Source of the DNA: Methanomassiliicoccus luminyensis B10
Lineage (GTDB): Archaea; Thermoplasmatota; Thermoplasmata; Methanomassiliicoccales; Methanomassiliicoccaceae
Length of the DNA: 64,000 nucleotides
Reading direction: 5' to 3'
Assembly: GCF_000308215.1 (NCBI RefSeq)
Contig: NZ_CAJE01000004.1
Span: 62,001-126,000, forward strand
In this document: positions 7,273 to 44,948 of the stretch, in pieces
How positions within the stretch are numbered: the first letter of the stretch is position 1
How the letters are laid out: each line of letters opens with the position of its first letter
Position numbers and translations under genes: made by a program
The notes under the pieces: model-generated
The model's database searches: none
Told to the model about the DNA's origin: nothing
The model's input: the letters and a program-made list of their open reading frames with translations, nothing else

Positions 7273-8754
7273 GTGAACAATATGGTCAATAAGTTAAAAG
7301 GGATGGGCTACGGGGGAGTAGTGCTCTCGGTCACCACCATCGGGGTGCTGATATCGTCCATCCAGGGCTCCGCCCTTCTGATTATCCTTCCGGAAATGAT
7401 GCAAGCGCTGAACATGGACCTGCTGACCATCATGTGGGTCCTGATGGTATACCTCCTCATCCTCACCGCGATGGTGCCGGTGTTCGGCCGCCTGGCTGAT
7501 ATGTTCGGTCGAAAGAGATTATATGTCCTGGGGTTCGCGGTGTTCACCATCGGCTCGCTGCTGTGCGGCCTCTCCCAGCCGCAGTTCAGAGGTGTGGACC
7601 TCATAATCTACAGGATCGTACAGGCCATGGGCGGCGCCCTGCTCACCGCCAACGGTCCCGCGATGATCGCCGATGCCTTTGATGCCCGTCACCTCGGCTT
7701 CGGCCTCGGGGTCAATATGGTCGCCGGAGGCGCCGGCCTGGTGCTCGGCCCCCTGGTGGGCGGCGCCCTGGCCCCGTTCGGCTGGGAATGGATCTTCCTG
7801 ATCAACGTCCCCATCGGAATAGTCGGCACGCTGTGGGCCCTGCACCGCCTCCGGGAACCGGTGCTCCTGCCCAAGGGGCAGAGCTTCGACTGGCTCGGCA
7901 GCGGGGTGTTCCTCGCCGGCCTGGTGGCGATCCTGCTGGGGCTGTCGTTCGTGGCCTTCCCTGCGGTGGACCAGGCGATGATCATCGCCCTGTTCGTCTT
8001 CGGGGCGCTGGGAATGGTGGCGTTCATCGCCGTGGAGAGGAAGGCCAAGTACCCCATGATGGACCTCAATCTGTTCAAGAACCGGGAGTTCGCCATGGGC
8101 AACGCCACCATGTTCCTTAACAGCCTGGCCAGGGGGGCGGTGCTGTTCCTCCTGATCTTCTTCCTGCAGGGGCCGTACGAACAGGACCCCCTGACCGCGG
8201 GCATCAGCCTGATCCCGTTCGGCATAACCTTCGTGGTGATGGGGCCGATATCCGGAAGGCTTTCCGACCGCTACGGGCCGCGCCCGTTCATCATCGCCGG
8301 CCTTGCGCTGTCGGCCCTCGCCCTCCTGGGGTTCGCCACCATCGACCACAACACCCCGTTCTGGCTCCTGGCCACGTACATGGCCATGATGGGCATCGGG
8401 GGCGGCCTGTTCGCCTCGCCCAACAGCAGCTCGGTCATGAACACGGTTAGGCCGGAGAAGAGGGGCATCGCCGCCGGCACCAGGTCCATGCTGATGAACA
8501 TCGGATCGATGTTCAGCCTGGCCCTGGCGTTCCCGCTGGTGATGACCGACCTTCCCATGGACGACCTGATGAACCTGTTCCTGTACGGCGGCGGCATAAG
8601 CCCTGGTGCCCTGGCCATATTCGAGAGCGGGCTGCACATGGCGTTCCTGCTGTTCATGGCGACCTCCGTTCTGGCGGTGGCCATGGCGCTGGTCAAGGCC
8701 AAGCCGAGGCAGATGAAGTTCCGAGAGAACGGCGGGGAGCCCTCGGTCGAATAA
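7273..8754 (+). CDS. MFS multidrug exporter, DHA2 (14-helix) type
   Basis: 493 residues, the usual length for DHA2 drug:proton antiporters. About 14 hydrophobic segments are visible, with motif A as GRLADMFGRKRLY after helix 2 and the antiporter motif C region as GAGLVLGPLVGG in helix 5. Start is GTG at 7273; an in-frame ATG lies three codons later (7282). No strong ribosome site is seen. It follows the MarR regulator directly and is probably induced together with it. Confidence 0.85.
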   Translation: MNNMVNKLKGMGYGGVVLSVTTIGVLISSIQGSALLIILPEMMQALNMDLLTIMWVLMVYLLILTAMVPVFGRLADMFGRKRLYVLGFAVFTIGSLLCGLSQPQFRGVDLIIYRIVQAMGGALLTANGPAMIADAFDARHLGFGLGVNMVAGGAGLVLGPLVGGALAPFGWEWIFLINVPIGIVGTLWALHRLREPVLLPKGQSFDWLGSGVFLAGLVAILLGLSFVAFPAVDQAMIIALFVFGALGMVAFIAVERKAKYPMMDLNLFKNREFAMGNATMFLNSLARGAVLFLLIFFLQGPYEQDPLTAGISLIPFGITFVVMGPISGRLSDRYGPRPFIIAGLALSALALLGFATIDHNTPFWLLATYMAMMGIGGGLFASPNSSSVMNTVRPEKRGIAAGTRSMLMNIGSMFSLALAFPLVMTDLPMDDLMNLFLYGGGISPGALAIFESGLHMAFLLFMATSVLAVAMALVKAKPRQMKFRENGGEPSVE

Positions 8755-35056: not shown

Positions 35057-36397
35057 ATGCAGATTGCGATCATAGGTGCCGGCACCGTAGGTTACGCGGT
35101 AGCGAGGATACTGTCGAGCCAGCACTCCGTCCTGGTGGTGGAGGAGGACGAGAAACGGTACGAGCACGTGATCAATACCCTTAACGTGGGGGCCATGAAC
35201 GCCAACGGGGCCAGCCCCAAGGTCCTGCAGAGGGTCATGAAGGAAAAGATCGACCTGTTCCTCGCCGTCACGGAGAGGGACGAGACCAATGTGTTCGCCT
35301 GCCTGGTGGCCAAGCAGATACGGCCGGAAGCGATCACCGTGGCCAGGATGCGGGACCATGACTACACTCAGGGGAGCAAGGTCTCCGAGTTCCTGGGGGT
35401 GGACGACATCATCTCCCCGGAGTACCTCATCGCGGCCAAGATGAAGAAGCTCGCCATGCTGAGGAACGCGGTGGACCACGAGTCCATGCCCTCCTTGGGG
35501 CTGGAGATCGCCAGGTTCCGGGTGCCCGGCAACGGCCGCACCGCCATCCCCATCACCGGCCTCAGCCTGCCCCGGGACTGCAGGATCCTGTCGATACGCC
35601 GGGGCGGGGAGATCCTCCTGCCCGAGGAGTACGAGAACCTGGTCTGCGGCGACGAGGTAGTGGTCATCGGGGACGAGGCCGGCATCGTGCAGTTCGACCG
35701 GGTCCTGGGGGTCGGGAAGAGGGCCCAGGACATTCTCATCGTGGGGGGCAGCATCATAGCCGACTATCTCCTGTGCATGCTGGAGAACGAGAAGGTATCG
35801 GTCCGGCTTATCGAGAAGAACGAGGCCCGGTGCAGGGAGCTGGCCCGCAAGTTCGATGGCGTGGTCATCATCAACGACAACGGCACCGACCCGCTGGTGC
35901 TGCGCAACGAGAACGTTGGCAACACTGATGTGCTGGTATGCACCACCAACAATGAGGAGGGCAACCTCCTGGCGTGCCTGGTGGGCAAGCATCTGGGCGT
36001 ATCCAAGACCGTCACCATGTACTCGAAGCAAGAGTACCGGGACATATTCCAGATGGCCGGCATCGACGCCGCCGTCGGCTACTACGGAGTGGTGGCCAAC
36101 GAGATCGTGAAGAAGACCGTCCCGGACTTCGAGGTGGTGCTGCTGATGAACGGCGCCAAGGAGGAGCTGATATCCCTCAAGGTGGGCTCCCGGAACCGCC
36201 TCAGGGACGTCCGCCTCGGCGATGCCAAGCTGCCCGACCGCACCTCCATCGCCGCGGTGATCAGCGACGGGACGGTCATAATCCCGGACCCTGACACCCA
36301 CATCATGGATGGTGATACCCTGCTGATCTACGCGGACCGGTCGGACATCTCCGTGCTGGAAAGGATGTTCCATGTCAATATCCCGGTGAGCCCTTGA
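35057..36397 (+). CDS. trkA: Potassium uptake regulator TrkA
   Basis: 446 residues with two repeats of an NAD-binding Rossmann domain plus TrkA-C domain: AIIGAGTVGYAVARIL at the N-terminus and ILIVGGSIIADYLL in the middle, ending in a TrkA-C domain. The first domain keeps GxGxxG; the second reads GGSIIAD. TrkA binds NAD(H)/ATP on the cytoplasmic side and gates TrkH. A purine-rich GGTGG precedes the ATG. The stop overlaps the trkH start by 4 nt. Confidence 0.93.
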   Translation: MQIAIIGAGTVGYAVARILSSQHSVLVVEEDEKRYEHVINTLNVGAMNANGASPKVLQRVMKEKIDLFLAVTERDETNVFACLVAKQIRPEAITVARMRDHDYTQGSKVSEFLGVDDIISPEYLIAAKMKKLAMLRNAVDHESMPSLGLEIARFRVPGNGRTAIPITGLSLPRDCRILSIRRGGEILLPEEYENLVCGDEVVVIGDEAGIVQFDRVLGVGKRAQDILIVGGSIIADYLLCMLENEKVSVRLIEKNEARCRELARKFDGVVIINDNGTDPLVLRNENVGNTDVLVCTTNNEEGNLLACLVGKHLGVSKTVTMYSKQEYRDIFQMAGIDAAVGYYGVVANEIVKKTVPDFEVVLLMNGAKEELISLKVGSRNRLRDVRLGDAKLPDRTSIAAVISDGTVIIPDPDTHIMDGDTLLIYADRSDISVLERMFHVNIPVSP

Positions 36398-38016
36398 AGT
36401 TGAGACGGAACGTGGTTAAGAAAGAGATCAAGGTAAAGCTCAAGAAGCCGGTCAAGAAGCGCCTGAAGACCTCGATCCACAAGCTCGGCCTGGACCGGTA
36501 CGGCCTCCAGGAGCGGATCGCCCGCAAGGAGGGCACCGTGCCCTACTTGTTCGGCCTCCTGATATCCTACATCTCCATCTCGTTCCTGGTGCCCATGTCC
36601 GTGGCTTTGTTCTACGGCGAGGACCCCCGGCCATGGATCTACCCGTGGCTGCTCACGACCATGGTGGGCATACCGCTGGTGCTGAGGTACAAGTCGTCCG
36701 TGACGACCCGGCCCACCGAGGCAATACTGGTGCTGACGACCGGCTGGTTCGTGGCCACCATATTCGGCGCGATACCGTTCGTCATGTACGGCATGGGCCC
36801 CCTGGACGCCATGTTCGAGACCCTGAGCGGCTTCACCACCACCGGGGCCACCATAATGCTGGACATAGAATCGTGGCCCAAGAGCCTGCTGCTGTGGCGG
36901 TCCTTCGTCCAGTGGCTCGGCGGCGCGGGCATAGTCATGATATTCGTCACCATCTTCCCCATGCTGGGGGTGGCCGGCCGCAACTTGGTCCGGAACGAGA
37001 CCACCGGCATGGACACCCAGAACGTCACCCTCCGGGTCCAGGCGGAGGCGAAGAAGTTCCACCTCATCTATCTGGGCCTCTCCCTGGCCCAGCTGGGCCT
37101 CCTGCTGCTGACCGGCATCGGCATATACGATGCGTCCACCGTGGTGTTCTCCACCATGTCCACCGGCGGGTTCTCGCCGCACACTCGGAGCATCGAGTAC
37201 TTCAACGACCCGGTGGTGGAGTGGATAATCATCGTGTTCATGTTCCTGGCCGGTACCAACTTCTATCTGCACTTCCAGGCCATCGCGTCCCGCAGCGCCC
37301 GGACGTACTGGCGCAACTCGGAGTTCCGGACCTACGCGCTGCTGGTGGTCTTGTTCAGCGCGGTGGGGGCGGCGCTGCTGTGGGGGGACTACGGCGGGGG
37401 CGTGGAGGCGAACATAAGGGCCTCCACCTTCCAGATGCTGTCGGTGATGACCTCCACGGGGTTCGCCACTACTGACTTTTCGATATGGAGCACCAGCCTC
37501 CTGTTCATGCTCTTCGCGCTGATGGTCATCGGGGGCAGCTCCGGCTCCACCGCCGGCGGCCTCAAGGTGATCAGGTTCGTCATCTCCCGGAAGTTCATTG
37601 CCGCGTCGCTGTACAAGACGGTCCACCCCAAGGCGATATTCTCCATCAAGCTGGACGGGCGGATACTGGGAGAGAACACGGTATCCTCGCTCATGGCGGT
37701 GGTGATGTGCTATCTCGGGACCATCGGGGCCTGCACCGTCGCGCTGGCCCTCATGGGCATCGAGCCCATGGTATCACTAAGCGCGGCCATGACCGCGGTG
37801 TCCAATGCCGGCCCCGCCCTGGGCAGCCTCGGGCCGATGGGTACGTTCGGCCTGCTCCCCGACCCGGCCAAGATGGTGCTCATGTTCGCCATGTGGGCGG
37901 GCCGTATGGAGTTCCTGACGGCGTTCGCGATCCTGACCCCGGCGTTCTGGCGGGAGCTGCTGAGGTACAAGAGCAAGGACGAGGCTTTCTCCAGGCTCCC
38001 GGAGCTTCAGAAGTAA
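36394..38016 (+). CDS. trkH: Potassium uptake channel subunit TrkH
   Basis: 540 residues beginning at TTG in the trkA stop region. After a basic N-terminus about 10-12 membrane helices carry four pore loops with filter-like segments: SGFTTTGAT, TMSTGGFSPH, VMTSTGFATTD and AVSNAGPALG. The GGSSGSTAGG loop is the family gate. It imports K+ with TrkA and is the first gene pair of the osmotic block. The last ten bases overlap the convergent aminomutase-family gene. Confidence 0.93.
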   Translation: MKLRRNVVKKEIKVKLKKPVKKRLKTSIHKLGLDRYGLQERIARKEGTVPYLFGLLISYISISFLVPMSVALFYGEDPRPWIYPWLLTTMVGIPLVLRYKSSVTTRPTEAILVLTTGWFVATIFGAIPFVMYGMGPLDAMFETLSGFTTTGATIMLDIESWPKSLLLWRSFVQWLGGAGIVMIFVTIFPMLGVAGRNLVRNETTGMDTQNVTLRVQAEAKKFHLIYLGLSLAQLGLLLLTGIGIYDASTVVFSTMSTGGFSPHTRSIEYFNDPVVEWIIIVFMFLAGTNFYLHFQAIASRSARTYWRNSEFRTYALLVVLFSAVGAALLWGDYGGGVEANIRASTFQMLSVMTSTGFATTDFSIWSTSLLFMLFALMVIGGSSGSTAGGLKVIRFVISRKFIAASLYKTVHPKAIFSIKLDGRILGENTVSSLMAVVMCYLGTIGACTVALALMGIEPMVSLSAAMTAVSNAGPALGSLGPMGTFGLLPDPAKMVLMFAMWAGRMEFLTAFAILTPAFWRELLRYKSKDEAFSRLPELQK

Positions 38017-39884
38017 TACCAGATGCTGCGGTACTCCTCGGGGTCCTCGCCCCGCTCCCTCAGTCTCAGCAGGTAGTCCAGAATGGGCACGTCGGTGTAC
38101 ATGTAGGTCGACGCGGTAGTGATGTTCTTCTCCCAGGGATGGAACTCATAGACCCTCTCCCCCTGGGGAGAGATCGTGATAAGATCGTGGTTCTGCCACG
38201 ACCTCAGGTGGTTCTTCCCCAGGGCGGGTATGTTGAACACCGGCTCGTCCGTGCGCGACAGCCCGGGCAGGAGCCTCGCTTCCTCCTTCCGCTCCTGGAG
38301 GATGCGGGCGATGGGCACCCGGTACCAGTTCGTTTCCGTCTTCCCCTTGGTGTTGAACGTATAGTAGGGGTCCACCCCCACCTGCTTTAGGAGGAGCCGC
38401 AGCGCGGCGGTCTCGAATTTCCGGCTGTTCTCGAAGGTGAACACCTGCTGGTTGTACACGGCGATGCCCTGCATGCGGAACTTCTGCACCGCGGCCACCG
38501 CTTCCGGCGTCACTTCATAGGTGTGCTCGAAATGCGTCACCATGCAGAGGTCCTTCTCCGGGGGCACGTGGAACCGTCCGATGCTGTCGACGAACTCGTC
38601 GGTAAATCGCATCGGCAGGACCACCGGTAGGCGGGTCCCGATCCTGATCCTGGCGATGTGCTCGATGTCGGAGAGCCTCCGCAGCAGGCTGGAGAGCTTA
38701 TCATCATCCAGCAGGGCGGGATCGCCCCCGGTGACCAGGACCTCCGACACCACGGGGTGGTCCTCGAACCAGTCCAAGGCCCCGTCGATGCTATCGTCGG
38801 AGGCCGTGGCGTCGGGGCAGGAGACCCCTCCGATCTCCCAGTTCCTCTGGCAGTACACACAGATCTGGGCGCAGGTGTTGTAGGGCTTGAGGATGGCGAT
38901 CATGGGGTATCGCCGGGTCACCAGGTCCACCGGGGAGGTGTCCCCCTCCTTCATGAAGTCCAGCGAGGCGCCCCCGTTCCTTCTGGATTCCAGCACCCCC
39001 CGCACGTAGCTCAGGGGAGGGATGACCTGGGCCCTCACGGCGTGGTCCCACCGCCCCGACGGCTCGGGGTCGAACAGCGAAAGGTAGTAGGGGGTGATGC
39101 CGAAAGGGAGGTGGTGGTTGACCGCCAGGTCAATGGCCGCGGCCTCCTCCTCGGTGAGATCCACCAGCGCGGAGACCTGGTCCAGGTCCAGGAGCGCGTT
39201 GCGCTGGTGCCATCGATGGTCGTTCCAGTCATCCTCGGTGCCGCCGAGCACATCCAGTATCATGTCGCGGTTCCGCTTCCGCACCTCCACGATCTCCGGC
39301 TCCAGGCCGGTGCGGTACGACCCGATCTTTTCCTCGCACCTCTGGCCCAGCCGGTCGAGGTAGTCCGACCGGATGCGGGCACCCTCCCTGCCGCCATAGG
39401 CCAGGAACGAGGGGGCCTCGTCGGGGCAGATGTCCGATCGGCCCAGGGAGCCCTTGGCGATGTTGGAGATGTCCGTGAAAAAGGCCCTTCTCTCCACCTC
39501 CACCGCCCCGCCCCCGCGGACGATGCTTAAAAGGGTCGCTACCGCGCTGTGCCCGGTCATGCGCTCGCTGCGTCCGGAAAAGATGTTCTTCAAAACCCTG
39601 ATGCACTGGAGAGCATTAGCCCTTTCCAGGTCGTCCATGGCGCAGCGCTCCGACAGAAGCTCCTGTTCCCTGCGGAACAGGAGGTCGAAGAGCTTGGCCC
39701 GCACCTCCTCGACATCCTGAGGGCGGCTCAGGATCTCATTGAGCTCGGGATCCTCCTTCCTCAGGTGATCGGACCTGGTAACCTCGACGGTGGTAACGCC
39801 TCTGCTCCCCGCTCTCATATCCACGTCGCTTCCGGTCCGGCGCTCCTCACAGTCATTTCTTGCAGATCCGCTTTCCTCGTCCAT
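38007..39884 (-). CDS. Lysine 2,3-aminomutase-family radical SAM enzyme, long form
   Basis: 625 residues, about 200 longer than AblA/KamA. The radical SAM site is C-x3-C-x2-C in NTCAQICVYCQRN. SEVLVTGGDPALL and IRIGTRLPVVLPMRFTDE are family motifs, and the lysine in NIPALGKNH may hold PLP. The N-terminal about 300 residues have no domain I recognise. KamA-type enzymes make beta-amino acids; in methanogens beta-lysine feeds the osmolyte N-acetyl-beta-lysine. No acetyltransferase is adjacent, so the product is unproven, but the leader RNA is shared with the betaine importer. AGAGGTT precedes the ATG. Confidence 0.75.
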   Translation of the reverse strand: MDEESGSARNDCEERRTGSDVDMRAGSRGVTTVEVTRSDHLRKEDPELNEILSRPQDVEEVRAKLFDLLFRREQELLSERCAMDDLERANALQCIRVLKNIFSGRSERMTGHSAVATLLSIVRGGGAVEVERRAFFTDISNIAKGSLGRSDICPDEAPSFLAYGGREGARIRSDYLDRLGQRCEEKIGSYRTGLEPEIVEVRKRNRDMILDVLGGTEDDWNDHRWHQRNALLDLDQVSALVDLTEEEAAAIDLAVNHHLPFGITPYYLSLFDPEPSGRWDHAVRAQVIPPLSYVRGVLESRRNGGASLDFMKEGDTSPVDLVTRRYPMIAILKPYNTCAQICVYCQRNWEIGGVSCPDATASDDSIDGALDWFEDHPVVSEVLVTGGDPALLDDDKLSSLLRRLSDIEHIARIRIGTRLPVVLPMRFTDEFVDSIGRFHVPPEKDLCMVTHFEHTYEVTPEAVAAVQKFRMQGIAVYNQQVFTFENSRKFETAALRLLLKQVGVDPYYTFNTKGKTETNWYRVPIARILQERKEEARLLPGLSRTDEPVFNIPALGKNHLRSWQNHDLITISPQGERVYEFHPWEKNITTASTYMYTDVPILDYLLRLRERGEDPEEYRSIWYYF

Positions 39885-40195
39885 GGTGGCAACCTCTGTT
39901 TATATCGGCTGTCGATAGCCCTCCCGGGAGCGAGCTTAAGCTCTTACCGTCAGGGCGCATGCAGTTACGGGTTCCGCCGCAAGCTATTGGACCAGCACGG
40001 GGGCGTCAGGCCACTCCTAGAATGAAGCCACGCCCTCGCGATCGGTCGATTAAAGTGTCGCTTGCAGGATAGTAAAAGAACGACTGCGCGGCTTAAATAA
40101 TTATCTCATCATTATCTAATTGGATATTGTATCTATATGTACATTGGATGTGCCCAAGTAAAAAAAAGATAGGGGGCGAGCGCCCCTTGGGCCGT
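39885..40195. promoter_or_regulatory. Leader and promoter region of the aminomutase-family gene
   Basis: The 311-base gap holds, in minus-strand order, a very AT-rich stretch, TTATTTAA (40093-40100) as the likely TATA box, the structured leader (39977-40068), then about 80 bases with small hairpins (GAGCTTAAGCTC, CTCCCGGGAG, GGCT-AGCC) before AGAGGT (39892-39897) and the ATG. The rest is the short 3' flank of the betaine-binding gene. Confidence 0.5.
39977..40068 (-). promoter_or_regulatory. Candidate riboswitch-like leader RNA, copy A (aminomutase-family gene)
   Basis: Minus-strand RNA closed by P1 (CUGCAAGC, 40067-40060, with GCUUGCGG, 39984-39977). Inside lie a small CGA/UCG hairpin and P3 (GGGCGU with ACGCCC). 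The copy at 43460-43540 shares blocks GCAAGCGA, AAUCGACC, UGGCUU, AGUGG, CGUGCUGG and CCAAUAGCUUGCGGCG. P3 there is AGGCAU with GUGCCU, so pairing is kept by double changes. P1 begins only a few bases after the transcript start predicted from the TATA box. I do not recognise a known riboswitch class. Confidence 0.7.
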
Positions 40196-41080
40196 TCAGT
40201 TCGCCACGCCAGTGATCCAGTAGTCCACGGTCCCCCGGTTCGCGTCGATCCATTTCTGGGCGGCCTCTTTCTCGGACATGCCGTCGGCTATGTCCGACAT
40301 TACCGATTGGATGTCCACCTGGGTCCAGTTGAACCGCTCGATTATGGCGTAGGCCTCCGGGTTCTCTTCCTGGAACCCCTGCCGGGCCAGCGTCTCCACG
40401 TGCTCCACGCCGCCATATACTCCCTCAGGGTCCTCAAGCATCACGAGGTCCCACCTCTCGAACGCCCAGTGAGGGGTCCACAGGGTCACCACGATCCATT
40501 CCTCGTCGGAATATGCCGAACGGAGCTGCGTAAGCATCATGGCACTGTTGCTGGTCACCAGGTCATAATCCAGGCCGTAGCTTTCGATGGCCTCTTCGGT
40601 GGCGATCGTGACCCCCGCTCCGGCGTCGATGCCATATATCTTGCTGTCGAACTGCGCTTTCCTTTCGTTGAGGTCCTCTATGCTGACCACCCCGCTCTCG
40701 TAGACGTAGTAGGGGACGGCAAGCCCGATGGTGCAGCCTTCCAGATTGGTCGACACTCGATCTATATCATCCCCGTAGGAATTCCAGTAGCCGCTATGCG
40801 TCACCGGCAACCACGCTGAGGTGGTGAAGTCAAGGTCCCCATTGGCCAGGCCCTGATACAGCAATCCCGGGTCCACGTTGACCATCTCTATCCCGAACCC
40901 CGCCTCCTCGAGCACCAGCGTTAGCACGTTGGTGCTGGCGATCTCTCCATCCCACGCTACGTACCCGAATTGGAGCTTATCCTCTCCGCTTCCGGATGAC
41001 CACACGGCGTAGGAGACGGCCGCCAGGGCGACCGCCAAGACCACACCGATCGTTATTGTCTTCTGCGTCTTCTTGTCCAT
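40196..41080 (-). CDS. Glycine betaine/choline-type substrate-binding protein
   Basis: 294 residues from ATG at 41080 with GGTGAAAG before it. One N-terminal membrane helix (IGVVLAVALAAVSYAVW) anchors it outside; there is no lipobox cysteine. Aromatic motifs typical of OpuAC/ProX betaine cages are YVAWDGEIAST, TSAWLPVTHSGYW and TLWTPHWAF. It is the third gene of the importer operon, 116 nt after the permease. The open frame extending upstream is a permease shadow. Substrate assignment rests on these motifs and the operon. Confidence 0.88.
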   Translation of the reverse strand: MDKKTQKTITIGVVLAVALAAVSYAVWSSGSGEDKLQFGYVAWDGEIASTNVLTLVLEEAGFGIEMVNVDPGLLYQGLANGDLDFTTSAWLPVTHSGYWNSYGDDIDRVSTNLEGCTIGLAVPYYVYESGVVSIEDLNERKAQFDSKIYGIDAGAGVTIATEEAIESYGLDYDLVTSNSAMMLTQLRSAYSDEEWIVVTLWTPHWAFERWDLVMLEDPEGVYGGVEHVETLARQGFQEENPEAYAIIERFNWTQVDIQSVMSDIADGMSEKEAAQKWIDANRGTVDYWITGVAN

Positions 41081-41196
41081 TCTTTCACCTCTCATATTCG
41101 TTCTTTTTCGTCGTTCTTTCCATTCATCACCCGCGGAGGGGTGGAGCGTGATAGCTTGCGCTAGCTCGGCGCATTGGTCCTTCTCGTTCCGGGGGA

Positions 41197-42021
41197 TCAT
41201 TTCGACGGACGAGCGGTGCCCTGGGTGATCCGGTCGAGTATGATGGCGATCAGCACGACGGCCAGGCCAGCTTCGAACCCCAGCCCGATATCCACAGTAT
41301 TTATGGCCCTCAGGACGTTCCCTCCCAACCCCCTCGCCCCGATCATGGAGGCGATGACCACCATGGACAGAGAGAGCATGATGCACTGGTTGATGCCCGC
41401 ACGTATGGTTGGCATGGCCAGCGGCAGCTCGATATGCAGCAGCTTCTGGAACGGGGTGGAGCCGAACGAGTCGGCCACTTCCTTCATATCGCGGGGTACC
41501 TGGCGGATCCCCAGGTTGGTCAGCCGAACGATGGGGGGCAGAGCGAATACCACCGTCGCGATCATGCCTGGCACGTTCCCCAGCCCGAAGAAGATGGCCA
41601 CCGGTATCAGGTACACGAACGATGGCATGGTCTGCATGAAGTCCAGGAGTACCTTGACCGCGGCGAAGAGGCGGTCGCTCCGGGAGCAGGCGATCCCGAT
41701 GGGCATCCCGATGATCACGGCCACCAGGGTGGCGGTCAGCACCAGGGACACGGTGTCCATGGCCAGCTGCCACAGCCCCATGGAGTGGATCAATGCCAGG
41801 GCCGCGGCGACACCGCCGGTCAGCAGCAGCCTGCGGGTGGCCACGAAGGCCAGGACCGTGATGAGCGCGATGAGCAGGGGGGCGGGGATCGCCATCAGGG
41901 CCTTGCTCACGTAGCCCAGGAACCATCCCAGGGTGTCGGAGAGCCCGTCCAGGAACCATCCCAGGTTCTCATCGATCAGGTCCACCAGTTCGACGGCCGC
42001 CTCGCCTATGGGCCCGGTCAT
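41197..42021 (-). CDS. Betaine ABC importer, permease
   Basis: 274 residues with about six membrane helices and the ABC importer EAA-like loop in KEVADSFGSTPFQKLLHIELPLAMPTIRAG. The layout matches OpuAB/ProW. The ATG overlaps the end of the ATPase gene by 4 nt (ATGA). It forms the membrane channel for the binding protein encoded downstream. Confidence 0.9.
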   Translation of the reverse strand: MTGPIGEAAVELVDLIDENLGWFLDGLSDTLGWFLGYVSKALMAIPAPLLIALITVLAFVATRRLLLTGGVAAALALIHSMGLWQLAMDTVSLVLTATLVAVIIGMPIGIACSRSDRLFAAVKVLLDFMQTMPSFVYLIPVAIFFGLGNVPGMIATVVFALPPIVRLTNLGIRQVPRDMKEVADSFGSTPFQKLLHIELPLAMPTIRAGINQCIMLSLSMVVIASMIGARGLGGNVLRAINTVDIGLGFEAGLAVVLIAIILDRITQGTARPSK

Positions 42022-43439
42022 GCCAGCGCCTCCTCGGGCTCGATGGTGTTCAGTACCCTGGTGGGCAGGACCTTGCCGATGAGGCGGCGGTCCGGGCCCA
42101 CCACCGGGGCCGGGTGATCGGTCCTGACGAGAATGGGTATGATCTCCCTTATCGGCGATGAGGGTGCTACCGCGGTGACCTCGGTCATCATGATGTCATC
42201 AAGGCTTTCTTCAGGGCCATGCGCGGAGCGGAGGTCCTCGATGCGCACCAGCCCGGCCAGTCTCATGTCCTGGTCGACCACGAACATCCTGGTGACCCCC
42301 TCGTCCTCCATGATGGCCAGCGCTTTGACGGGGTCGGTCCTCCGGGGCAGGCAGGGCCCGGGCTGTTCCATGACCCTTTCGACGGTCAGCACCTTGGCCT
42401 TGTCCACGCTGCTCATGAAGGACCGGACGAAGTCGTCGGCCGGTTTAGCCAGGATGTCCTCGGGAGTACCGATCTGCACGATGCGGCCCTCTTTCATTAT
42501 CGCTATCCGATCCCCTATCGAGAGCGCCTCCTCAAGGTCATGGGTCACGAAGACAATGGTCTTCCTGACCTTTCCCTGGAGCTGCACCAGCTCGCGCTGC
42601 ATGTCCCTGCGGATGATGGGGTCGAGAGCGCTGAAGGCCTCGTCCATGAGCAGGATGTCCGGGCCGTTCACCAGTGCCCTGGCCAGCCCCACCCTTTGCT
42701 TCTGCCCCCCGCTCATCTGGGACGGGAGGGCCTCTTCGTAGCCCTCCAACCCGACCATCCCCAGCATGGAGCGGGCGCTCTCGTGCCGGGCTTCCAGGGG
42801 GACCCCCTGAAGCTCCAGTCCATAGGCGACGTTCTCAACGGCGGTCCGATGGGGCAGCAAGGCGAAGTTCTGGAAGACCATGCTTATCTTGTGCCGGCGG
42901 AGATCCCGGAGCGCGTGGGCGTCCAATTCCAGCACGTCCTGGGAATCGATGACGATCGATCCGCTCGACGGCTCGATAAGCCGGTTGATGCATCTCAATA
43001 GGGTCGACTTGCCGCAGCCGGACAGCCCCATGATGACGAAGACCTCTCCCTCCCTTATGTCCAGATCTATGTTCTGGATGCCTACGTTGCTGCCAGTGGC
43101 CTCCATGATGTCCTTTTTTGACCGGCCGGCCGCGAGAAGTGCCAGGGCCGGCTTGGGATCGGCCCCATAGATCTTGGTGAGGTCCCTGATCTTTATCTTG
43201 ATGATAGAAGGATGGTCCCTCTCGGGTACCGCGCGGGAGAGGGCAGGGACCATGGCCATGCTCCCGGCGGTGCCTTCGTTCGTGGCAGATGGGGACGGAC
43301 GCTTCCGGAAGCGGTCCATCAGCCCGATCAGCCACTCGAAGACGTGATTATTGATCGGATCGATGATCTCGTCGAGCCAGAGGGATAGTCTCGTTTCGGC
43401 GTTCCTGAGCAGAGCTTGCGCTCTTGTTGTTAAGGGCAT
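42018..43439 (-). CDS. Betaine ABC importer, ATPase with CBS domains
   Basis: 473 residues. An N-terminal extension of about 80 residues precedes the ATPase: Walker A GLSGCGKST, signature MSGGQKQRVG, Walker B ILLMDEAFSALDP. Two CBS domains end the protein (from about 330), as in OpuAA/ProV, where they sense ionic strength or c-di-AMP. The extension before the first ATPase strand is unusual. ATG at 43439, GAGGTGA 8 nt upstream, and the candidate leader RNA ends just before that ribosome site. First gene of the operon. Confidence 0.92.
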   Translation of the reverse strand: MPLTTRAQALLRNAETRLSLWLDEIIDPINNHVFEWLIGLMDRFRKRPSPSATNEGTAGSMAMVPALSRAVPERDHPSIIKIKIRDLTKIYGADPKPALALLAAGRSKKDIMEATGSNVGIQNIDLDIREGEVFVIMGLSGCGKSTLLRCINRLIEPSSGSIVIDSQDVLELDAHALRDLRRHKISMVFQNFALLPHRTAVENVAYGLELQGVPLEARHESARSMLGMVGLEGYEEALPSQMSGGQKQRVGLARALVNGPDILLMDEAFSALDPIIRRDMQRELVQLQGKVRKTIVFVTHDLEEALSIGDRIAIMKEGRIVQIGTPEDILAKPADDFVRSFMSSVDKAKVLTVERVMEQPGPCLPRRTDPVKALAIMEDEGVTRMFVVDQDMRLAGLVRIEDLRSAHGPEESLDDIMMTEVTAVAPSSPIREIIPILVRTDHPAPVVGPDRRLIGKVLPTRVLNTIEPEEALA

Positions 43440-43703
43440 ATACTTTTCACCTCAGTTCGCCGCAAGCTATTGGGCCAGCACGAGGCACCACTCAGAAAGC
43501 CATGCCTTTGTGATAGGTCGATTTAAGTATCGCTTGCGGGACAGCTAAAGGAACTGCGCTATCGCATATAAAATTATCCCAATTATATCAACATTGATAA
43601 TATTGCTGGACATGACCTGGTCACATCATCCGTCGCCGGGCAGGCAAGAGCCCCCGGCGCAGGATGTCGGGGCGCGGCGCCTTAGTGGGAACGCTCAGGC
43701 GCT
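43440..43703. promoter_or_regulatory. Promoter and leader of the betaine operon
   Basis: Minus-strand order: AT-rich promoter with ATTTTATATG (43565-43574) and a second AT box about 15 bases upstream, then the structured leader (43460-43540), then GAGGTGA (43447-43453) and the ATG. The far side, 43620-43703, is the short GC-rich 3' flank of the antiporter gene; I see nothing else in it. Confidence 0.5.
43460..43540 (-). promoter_or_regulatory. Candidate riboswitch-like leader RNA, copy B (betaine operon)
   Basis: P1 pairs CCGCAAGC (43539-43532) with GCUUGCGG (43467-43460) in the minus-strand RNA. Internal hairpins are CGAU-ACUUAA-AUCG and AGGCAU with GUGCCU. TATA box to P1 spacing is the same as in copy A (about 30 bases). 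The ribosome site GAGGUGA begins 7 bases after P1, so folding could control translation. The same element precedes the other osmolyte-related gene on the same strand. Confidence 0.7.
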
Positions 43704-44948
43704 TCACTCTCCGGCCTCGGGCACCGCGCATGCAAGGTTGTTCTTCCTCTTGAACGCCCACGTGAGCAGGGGAGGCGCCACTATGGTGGTGGCCATGGAC
43801 ATGAACACGATCACGGAGAACATGCTGTCCGAGATCACCGCCATGCTCAGCCCGATGGAGGCGATGATGATGCCCACCTCGCCCCGGGGGACCATGCCGA
43901 CGCCGATGACCGTGGCGGACCTTCCGCCCAAGCTCCTCGCGCCCAGGCCGCAGCCCAGGAACTTGGTGACGATGGCGAGCAGAGTAACGATCACGGCGAG
44001 GACGATGACATCGCCGAACGAGGCGAGGTCCACCGACATCCCCACATGAAGGAAGAAGAACGGCACCAAGAACTCGTTGATGGGATGGAAGTCCTCCTCG
44101 CAGGGCCATTTGTCCTTGAACTCGGCGAAGGCCATGCCTGCCAGGAACGCCCCTATGATGGCTGCCAGGCCCACATAGGAGGCGAAGAAGGAGAGCCCGA
44201 GGCAGACGATGATGGCGAGAGGCAGGGGGGTGATGCCGCGGCGCTTCCGCTCCACGGCGCAGCCGTCCCTCGCTTCAGCGCTCTCTCCCTTCCGGGCGGC
44301 GAGGCGCTTCCTGGCCCGGGGGATGAGGATCGAGCCGACGAATATGACCATCACCACGAACAGCACTCCCTCAAGGGACACTAGGGCGATGTCCAGGATG
44401 CTGGTGCCGCTGCCGGAGGCGACGCCGACCACTATGGCCAGGACGATCATGCCCAGCACGTCATCGATGACCGCCGCGCCTATGATCACGCGTGACTCGA
44501 TGGCGTTGGTTAGGTCCATATCCTTGATGACCCGGGCGGTGATGCCCACGCTCGTGGCCACCAGGGCCGCGCCGATGAACAGCGCCTCGGTCATCCCGTG
44601 GCCCAGCCCAAGCATCAGGGCGATGCCGGCCACCAGGGGAAAGACCACGCCCAGAACGGCCACCAGGGTGGCGGTCCTGCCCACCTTCCTGAGCTCGCTG
44701 AACGGCGTCTCCAGTCCCACCGCGAACAGCAGGAAGATGACCCCGAGCTCGGCCAGTATCTCGAAGAAGCTCAGGTCGGTGTCAAGGCCCAGCGACGTGA
44801 ACAGGAACGTGTTCGCTACAATTATTCCCGCCAGGATCTCGCCGATGACGGGGGATATCTTGATCCTCTCGCACAGCAGCCCGGCCACCTTGGCCAGGAG
44901 GATCAGGACGAACAGCTGCATCAATATGGTCTCGATCGAAAGCTCCAT
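43704..44948 (-). CDS. CPA2-type cation/proton antiporter
   Basis: 414 residues, about 12 membrane helices, with GEILAGIIVANTFL near the N-terminus and the ion-site motif GAAVIDDVLGMIVL carrying the paired aspartates. FKDKWPCEEDFHPINEFLVPFFFLHVGM is typical of the KefB/NhaS3 branch. It exchanges Na+ or K+ for H+. No TrkA-N domain is attached. It neighbours a second, divergent antiporter-like gene. A TTTTTAATAGG promoter element precedes the ATG. Confidence 0.88.
   Translation of the reverse strand: MELSIETILMQLFVLILLAKVAGLLCERIKISPVIGEILAGIIVANTFLFTSLGLDTDLSFFEILAELGVIFLLFAVGLETPFSELRKVGRTATLVAVLGVVFPLVAGIALMLGLGHGMTEALFIGAALVATSVGITARVIKDMDLTNAIESRVIIGAAVIDDVLGMIVLAIVVGVASGSGTSILDIALVSLEGVLFVVMVIFVGSILIPRARKRLAARKGESAEARDGCAVERKRRGITPLPLAIIVCLGLSFFASYVGLAAIIGAFLAGMAFAEFKDKWPCEEDFHPINEFLVPFFFLHVGMSVDLASFGDVIVLAVIVTLLAIVTKFLGCGLGARSLGGRSATVIGVGMVPRGEVGIIIASIGLSMAVISDSMFSVIVFMSMATTIVAPPLLTWAFKRKNNLACAVPEAGE

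Follow-up and report, generated by a model that had tools for sequence, protein, structure and literature searches.

A duplicated promoter and leader segment with a candidate cis-acting RNA hairpin in front of a betaine importer operon and a KamA-family gene of Methanomassiliicoccus luminyensis

The locus was examined in a window of 64,000 nucleotides, that is, the whole stretch of DNA presented above, taken from the genome of M. luminyensis B10 (2,620,233 bases in 26 contigs). As shown in Table 1, the minus strand carries, in order, a cation/proton antiporter gene, a first leader (copy 2), the betaine importer genes for ProV, the permease and the OpuAC protein, a second leader (copy 1), and a gene for a KamA-family radical SAM protein, with which the plus-strand TrkA-TrkH genes are convergent. 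Positions 35057-44948 can be viewed as an osmoadaptation island combining TrkA-TrkH, the KamA-family gene, the betaine importer and the cation antiporter. A comparative genome paper has described a glycine-betaine ABC transporter in M. luminyensis that is missing from two relatives (PMC4153887).

Table 1. Features of the locus and of other proV leaders (window positions unless a locus handle is given)
Feature	Position	Strand	Basis or remark
TrkA-TrkH potassium uptake genes (context)	35057..38016	+	convergent with the KamA-family gene
KamA-family radical SAM protein (CxxxCxxC)	38007..39884	-	TIGR00238 above cut-off
Whole duplicated segment, copy 1	39927..40129	-	promoter, leader, decayed proV-start remnant
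Leader copy 1, KamA-family gene	39977..40068	-	P1, internal loop as in copy 2, P3
P1 of copy 1	40067-40060 with 39984-39977	-	
P3 of copy 1	 	-	GGGCGU/ACGCCC; apical part longer than in copy 2
TATA-like box, copy 1	40093..40100	-	sequence, TTATTTAA; start predicted at ~40070
OpuAC substrate-binding protein	40196..41086	-	PF04069, E 1.7e-69
proW-type permease	41197..42021	-	BPD_transp_1; TIGR03416, 310 bits
proV/OpuA ATPase with CBS domains	42018..43439	-	TIGR01186, 430 bits; Pfam ABC_tran and CBS
Whole duplicated segment, copy 2	43406..43605	-	promoter, leader, first codons of proV
Ribosome site of proV	43447..43453	-	sequence, GAGGTGA
Leader copy 2, betaine importer operon	43460..43540	-	P1, internal loop, P2, P3
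P1 of copy 2	43539-43532 with 43467-43460	-	
P2 and P3 of copy 2	 	-	P2, CC..CAC/GUG..GG; P3, AGGCAU/GUGCCU
TATA-like box, copy 2	43566..43573	-	sequence, TTTTATAT; start predicted at ~43543
CPA2-type cation/proton antiporter (context)	43704..44948	-	PF00999
GAGC/GCUC hairpin, both copies	39932-39943; 43412-43423	-	downstream of P1
R2 proV leaders	L067 3072-3340 (+); L069; L070 (-); L074 (-); L075; L076; L152 (-); L154		
Third-type proV leaders	L061 935-1053 (+); L063; L064; L066 (-)		

The KamA-family protein falls within the broad KamA family TIGR00238 only, scoring 178 bits against the NCBIfam equivalog cut-off of 525.4 for lysine 2,3-aminomutase, 215 against 650 for glutamate 2,3-aminomutase, and 159 against 600 for arginine 2,3-aminomutase. 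Because these scores lie below all three cut-offs, both its product and, with it, the osmolyte link are presumptive, and we regard the gene as a putative solute-synthesis gene.

A preliminary description had placed one and the same leader RNA on the minus strand in front of the importer operon and the KamA-family gene, and both the positions and the strand were borne out. When the importer leader was run by BLAST against the entire genome, the other copy alone was retrieved (E 1.2e-15; 124 nt, 74% identity), confirming that the two leaders share the element. In addition, a covariance model of the element (R1), whose alignment was kept in register by trimming the apical loop of copy 1 and leaving out one C, found these two copies only in this genome, and the unmodified copy 1 scored 87.8 bits against it. 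Both copies lie directly upstream of genes, and they are the only two in 2.62 Mb. The sequence blocks said to be unchanged were absent from the rest of the window, where shuffling predicted 0 occurrences; one of them nevertheless contains two differences and reads GCAAGCGA-Y-ACUU-W-AAUCGACC. The internal loop is asymmetric and conserved, with GAYACUUWAAUCGA opposite YCCAAUA. TATA-like boxes were present upstream of P1 in both copies as described, the transcript starts being predictions, and the ribosome site of proV was located 7 bases after P1. Searched against Rfam at gathering thresholds, the window yielded 5S rRNA only and no family for the element; a hit of that kind had been named in the preliminary description as refuting evidence.

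The likeness is not confined to the leaders. The two regions had been thought to have nothing else in common, which proved wrong, as the similarity passes P1 on both sides. The segment copies gave a local alignment score of 147 against 47 for the best shuffle. Upstream of P1, the likeness runs for ~61 nt, through the promoter, with 44 of 59 aligned positions identical, and downstream for 48 nt, with 33 of 46 identical; the upstream part alone exceeded 1000 of 1000 shuffles and the downstream part exceeded 98.3% of them. The downstream likeness reaches into the proV reading frame, covering its start codon and first codons, and the copy on the aminomutase side retains the first ~30 bases of proV as a degenerate, non-coding remnant. 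The N-terminus of the ProV protein of a relative (L065), MPLNTSAAKDMLARLETSLS, resembles that encoded in the window, MPLTTRAQALLRNAETRLS, and therefore this stretch belongs to proV, the likely source of the duplicate.

Gene order was also compared with a sister genus. All six loci compared (L010, L011, L013, L014, L017 and L038) keep the antiporter, KamA and TrkH genes side by side, with the importer located elsewhere. In the window, the importer operon lies between the antiporter and KamA-family genes, bracketed by the two leaders as direct repeats 3.5 kb apart. From this gene order together with the proV remnant, it follows that the KamA-family gene likely acquired the promoter and leader of proV, segmental duplication being the most likely route. 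Most simply, the importer operon would have moved in between the antiporter and KamA-family genes, where the duplicated segment brackets it; the remnant suggests that the copying ran from proV to the KamA-family gene. A small hairpin, GAGC-(UUAA/GCAA)-GCUC, was also seen downstream of P1 in both copies, with differing loops and a fold z of -2.7; in the importer copy it lies within coding sequence, at proV codons 6-10.

The structural proposal was examined on both copies. All 19 of the proposed pairs form in each. The reported swaps in P3 were recovered as two pairs changed on both sides, as was the C-G versus U-G difference in P1, and three of the 19 pairs were changed on one side only. The alifold consensus reached -24.0 against a column-shuffle mean of -13.1 (z -3.7), with 1 of 1000 shuffles as good. 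The alignment for this test was registered by hand and its columns were shuffled at the mononucleotide level, a procedure that keeps neither dinucleotides nor alignment uncertainty; the upstream flank gave no consensus-fold signal in this test. Folded singly, the two sequences were moderately stable (z -2.3 and -1.9). A covariation control with the two paralogues was not significant, 122 of 500 shuffles reaching the observed level, and since both copies derive from one segmental duplication, their likeness constitutes no independent evidence. We consider a conserved RNA hairpin to be the probable fold of the transcribed part.

Our preferred explanation, to which we assign about even chances, is a duplicated promoter and leader whose cis-acting hairpin places the importer and the aminomutase under common control. 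A stretch of ~200 bp, reaching from the promoter over the 5' leader into the first proV codons, would have been duplicated, leaving the betaine importer operon bracketed by two direct copies and allowing the downstream KamA-family gene to capture promoter and leader from proV. Once transcribed, the leader would form an imperfect hairpin, with P1 a few bases after the transcript start, followed by the internal loop and P2/P3, and the leader would act in cis to give the importer and the aminomutase the same response. Such action would most likely take place after transcription, through RNA stability, protein binding or ligand sensing; retention by selection, the post-transcriptional level and an osmotic signal are all presumed in this explanation. 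The distance from the end of P1 to the ribosome site is 7 nt in proV and about 80 nt in the KamA-family gene, and a single ribosome-site mechanism for both genes is therefore unlikely. The two copies yielded no common expression platform. In copy 2, an alternative pairing of P3 with the ribosome site (UGCCUC/GAGGUG) was seen by eye only. The element may influence mRNA stability as a hairpin at the 5' terminus, or may be bound by a protein or small molecule. A leader peptide was considered unlikely, as the distance between the conserved blocks is not the same in the two copies, and the difference of 11 nt leaves no common reading frame.

The first alternative is a fairly recent duplication that was passive as far as RNA is concerned, the KamA-family gene having gained a promoter and the hairpin being ordinary 5' UTR structure without a regulatory role. 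The flanks, which are likewise 72-75% identical, the moderate single-sequence folds and the non-significant two-sequence covariation would all be expected of such an event. Against it, the leader differs less than the flanks, at 10 of 82 (12%) versus 28 of 105 (27%) aligned positions (one-sided p 0.011), a modest difference measured against flanks that themselves contain promoter and coding sequence, and the final 25 nt of the leader keep 24 of 25 positions. This pattern is consistent with a modest constraint on the leader, and we consider the passive reading somewhat unlikely.

As a special case of the preferred explanation, the conserved internal loop might bind an osmotic signal and switch both genes, as a true ligand-binding riboswitch with K+, c-di-AMP, betaine or a beta-amino acid as candidate signals. 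The conserved unpaired blocks inside a helical frame, the position of the element before two osmolyte-related genes, the consensus fold (z -3.7) and the lack of an Rfam match all speak for this reading, but the element was absent from every other genome searched and so has no phylogenetic support. Pairing of a conserved block with the ribosome sites, attractive by eye, was no better than in shuffles (fractions 0.44 and 0.24), and no terminator-like stem with a U run was seen by eye in either leader. Ligand binding by a true riboswitch is judged unlikely, and about as unlikely is its fuller form, in which a new archaeal riboswitch restricted to this lineage would respond to an osmotic signal and would have been copied from the importer operon onto a compatible-solute biosynthesis gene. 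Of the original proposal of a candidate new riboswitch, the shared, probably structured leader before two osmolyte-related genes is supported, and the riboswitch part is a possibility.

The phylogenetic search was carried out at several levels. Run against 147 genomes of the order and 400 sampled from the class, R1 returned no homologue, and a DNA search of 100 relatives gave chance matches only. A gapped pattern run over GTDB species produced 66 matches against ~58 expected by our own chance estimate, none of them from this order and none with flanking P1 sequence; a single match on a viral contig, in coding sequence, likewise looked like chance. The leaders of KamA relatives bore no likeness to the element, and a by-eye resemblance in the proV leaders of another family found no support from covariance models run in both directions. 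The relatives searched included no second genome of the same genus, so that the absence is informative at the family level and above and says little about sister species.

Comparison with known systems placed the element as an orphan candidate leader RNA, for which ligand sensing is possible. It resembles the orphan cis-regulatory leader RNAs (PMC2864571) in having a structured 5' leader, conserved internal-loop nucleotides, functionally linked genes and no Rfam match, but those rest on many homologues with covariation and this one on two paralogues in one genome. Like the L7Ae-type kink-turn leaders, in which an archaeal 5' leader structure controls translation (PMC6298567), it is an archaeal 5' leader, but no kink-turn consensus was recognised by eye in the window leaders and the gene context is unrelated. 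Against Rfam, the importer leader (copy 2) matched no family even up to E 10, and thus not the c-di-AMP (ydaO/yuaA) riboswitch. That riboswitch controls osmolyte and potassium transport genes, and differs from the window leader in size and conserved blocks as well.

Compatible-solute control in methanogens is poorly understood, and few riboswitches are known in archaea. At this locus, a traceable duplication has put two candidate osmoadaptation genes under one leader, providing two natural variants in one strain, and the case illustrates the spread of a regulatory leader to a neighbour gene of the same physiology. If a riboswitch had indeed been copied onto a biosynthesis gene, uptake and synthesis would be under one RNA sensor.

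Alternatively, the conserved sequence could act as DNA, with a transcription factor recognising CCGCAAGCKAT half-sites that form an inverted repeat and bracket the leader; it is even conceivable that the internal CTTWAAT serves as the TATA box. The half-site match does reach beyond P1 (CCGCAAGCGAT / CCGCAAGCTAT), and the repeat spacing differs by 11 bp, about one helical turn. However, genome-wide counts show no enrichment of the half-site (8 matches versus 13 for the reversed control), and it is paired at these two loci only; a TATA-like box precedes P1 at a suitable distance in both copies, and neither the blocks of 15-20 conserved bases between the sites nor the paired P3 changes would be expected of an operator, which makes this reading quite improbable. 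A mobile or scattered repeat, suggested by two copies of one sequence as direct repeats 3.5 kb apart, is hardly tenable, since both copies adjoin gene starts and the scattered copies that the preliminary description had named as refuting evidence were looked for by whole-genome BLAST and R1 and not found.

Other Methanomassiliicoccales carry proV leaders that are also structured, but they are not recognised by R1, nor are the window leaders recognised by the model built for one of these types. In another family of the order, a conserved, structured proV leader of ~280 nt (R2), without an Rfam match, gave strong matches in 8 of 147 genomes, one in each, and thus has more homologues than the window element. 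Its strand CUGAGYUCGGAGUAU can pair either with the local GUGCCGAUCAG or with the distal AUGCUCCGAUCAG, and CUCCGAU of the distal strand is complementary to AUCGGAG at the ribosome site of proV; judged from these pairings, which were read by eye, R2 has the look of a translational switch. In the L075 locus, which has a proV leader, positions 7702-7810 (-) gave a further R2 match of lower score (26.7 bits, E about 1e-7). A third leader type, found before proV of the sister genus, has a GGGCGC/GCGCCC stem around GUCAUGCUGUUCCUGAC; the CUGUUC within this sequence complements GAACAG of the ribosome site, a putative long-range pairing.
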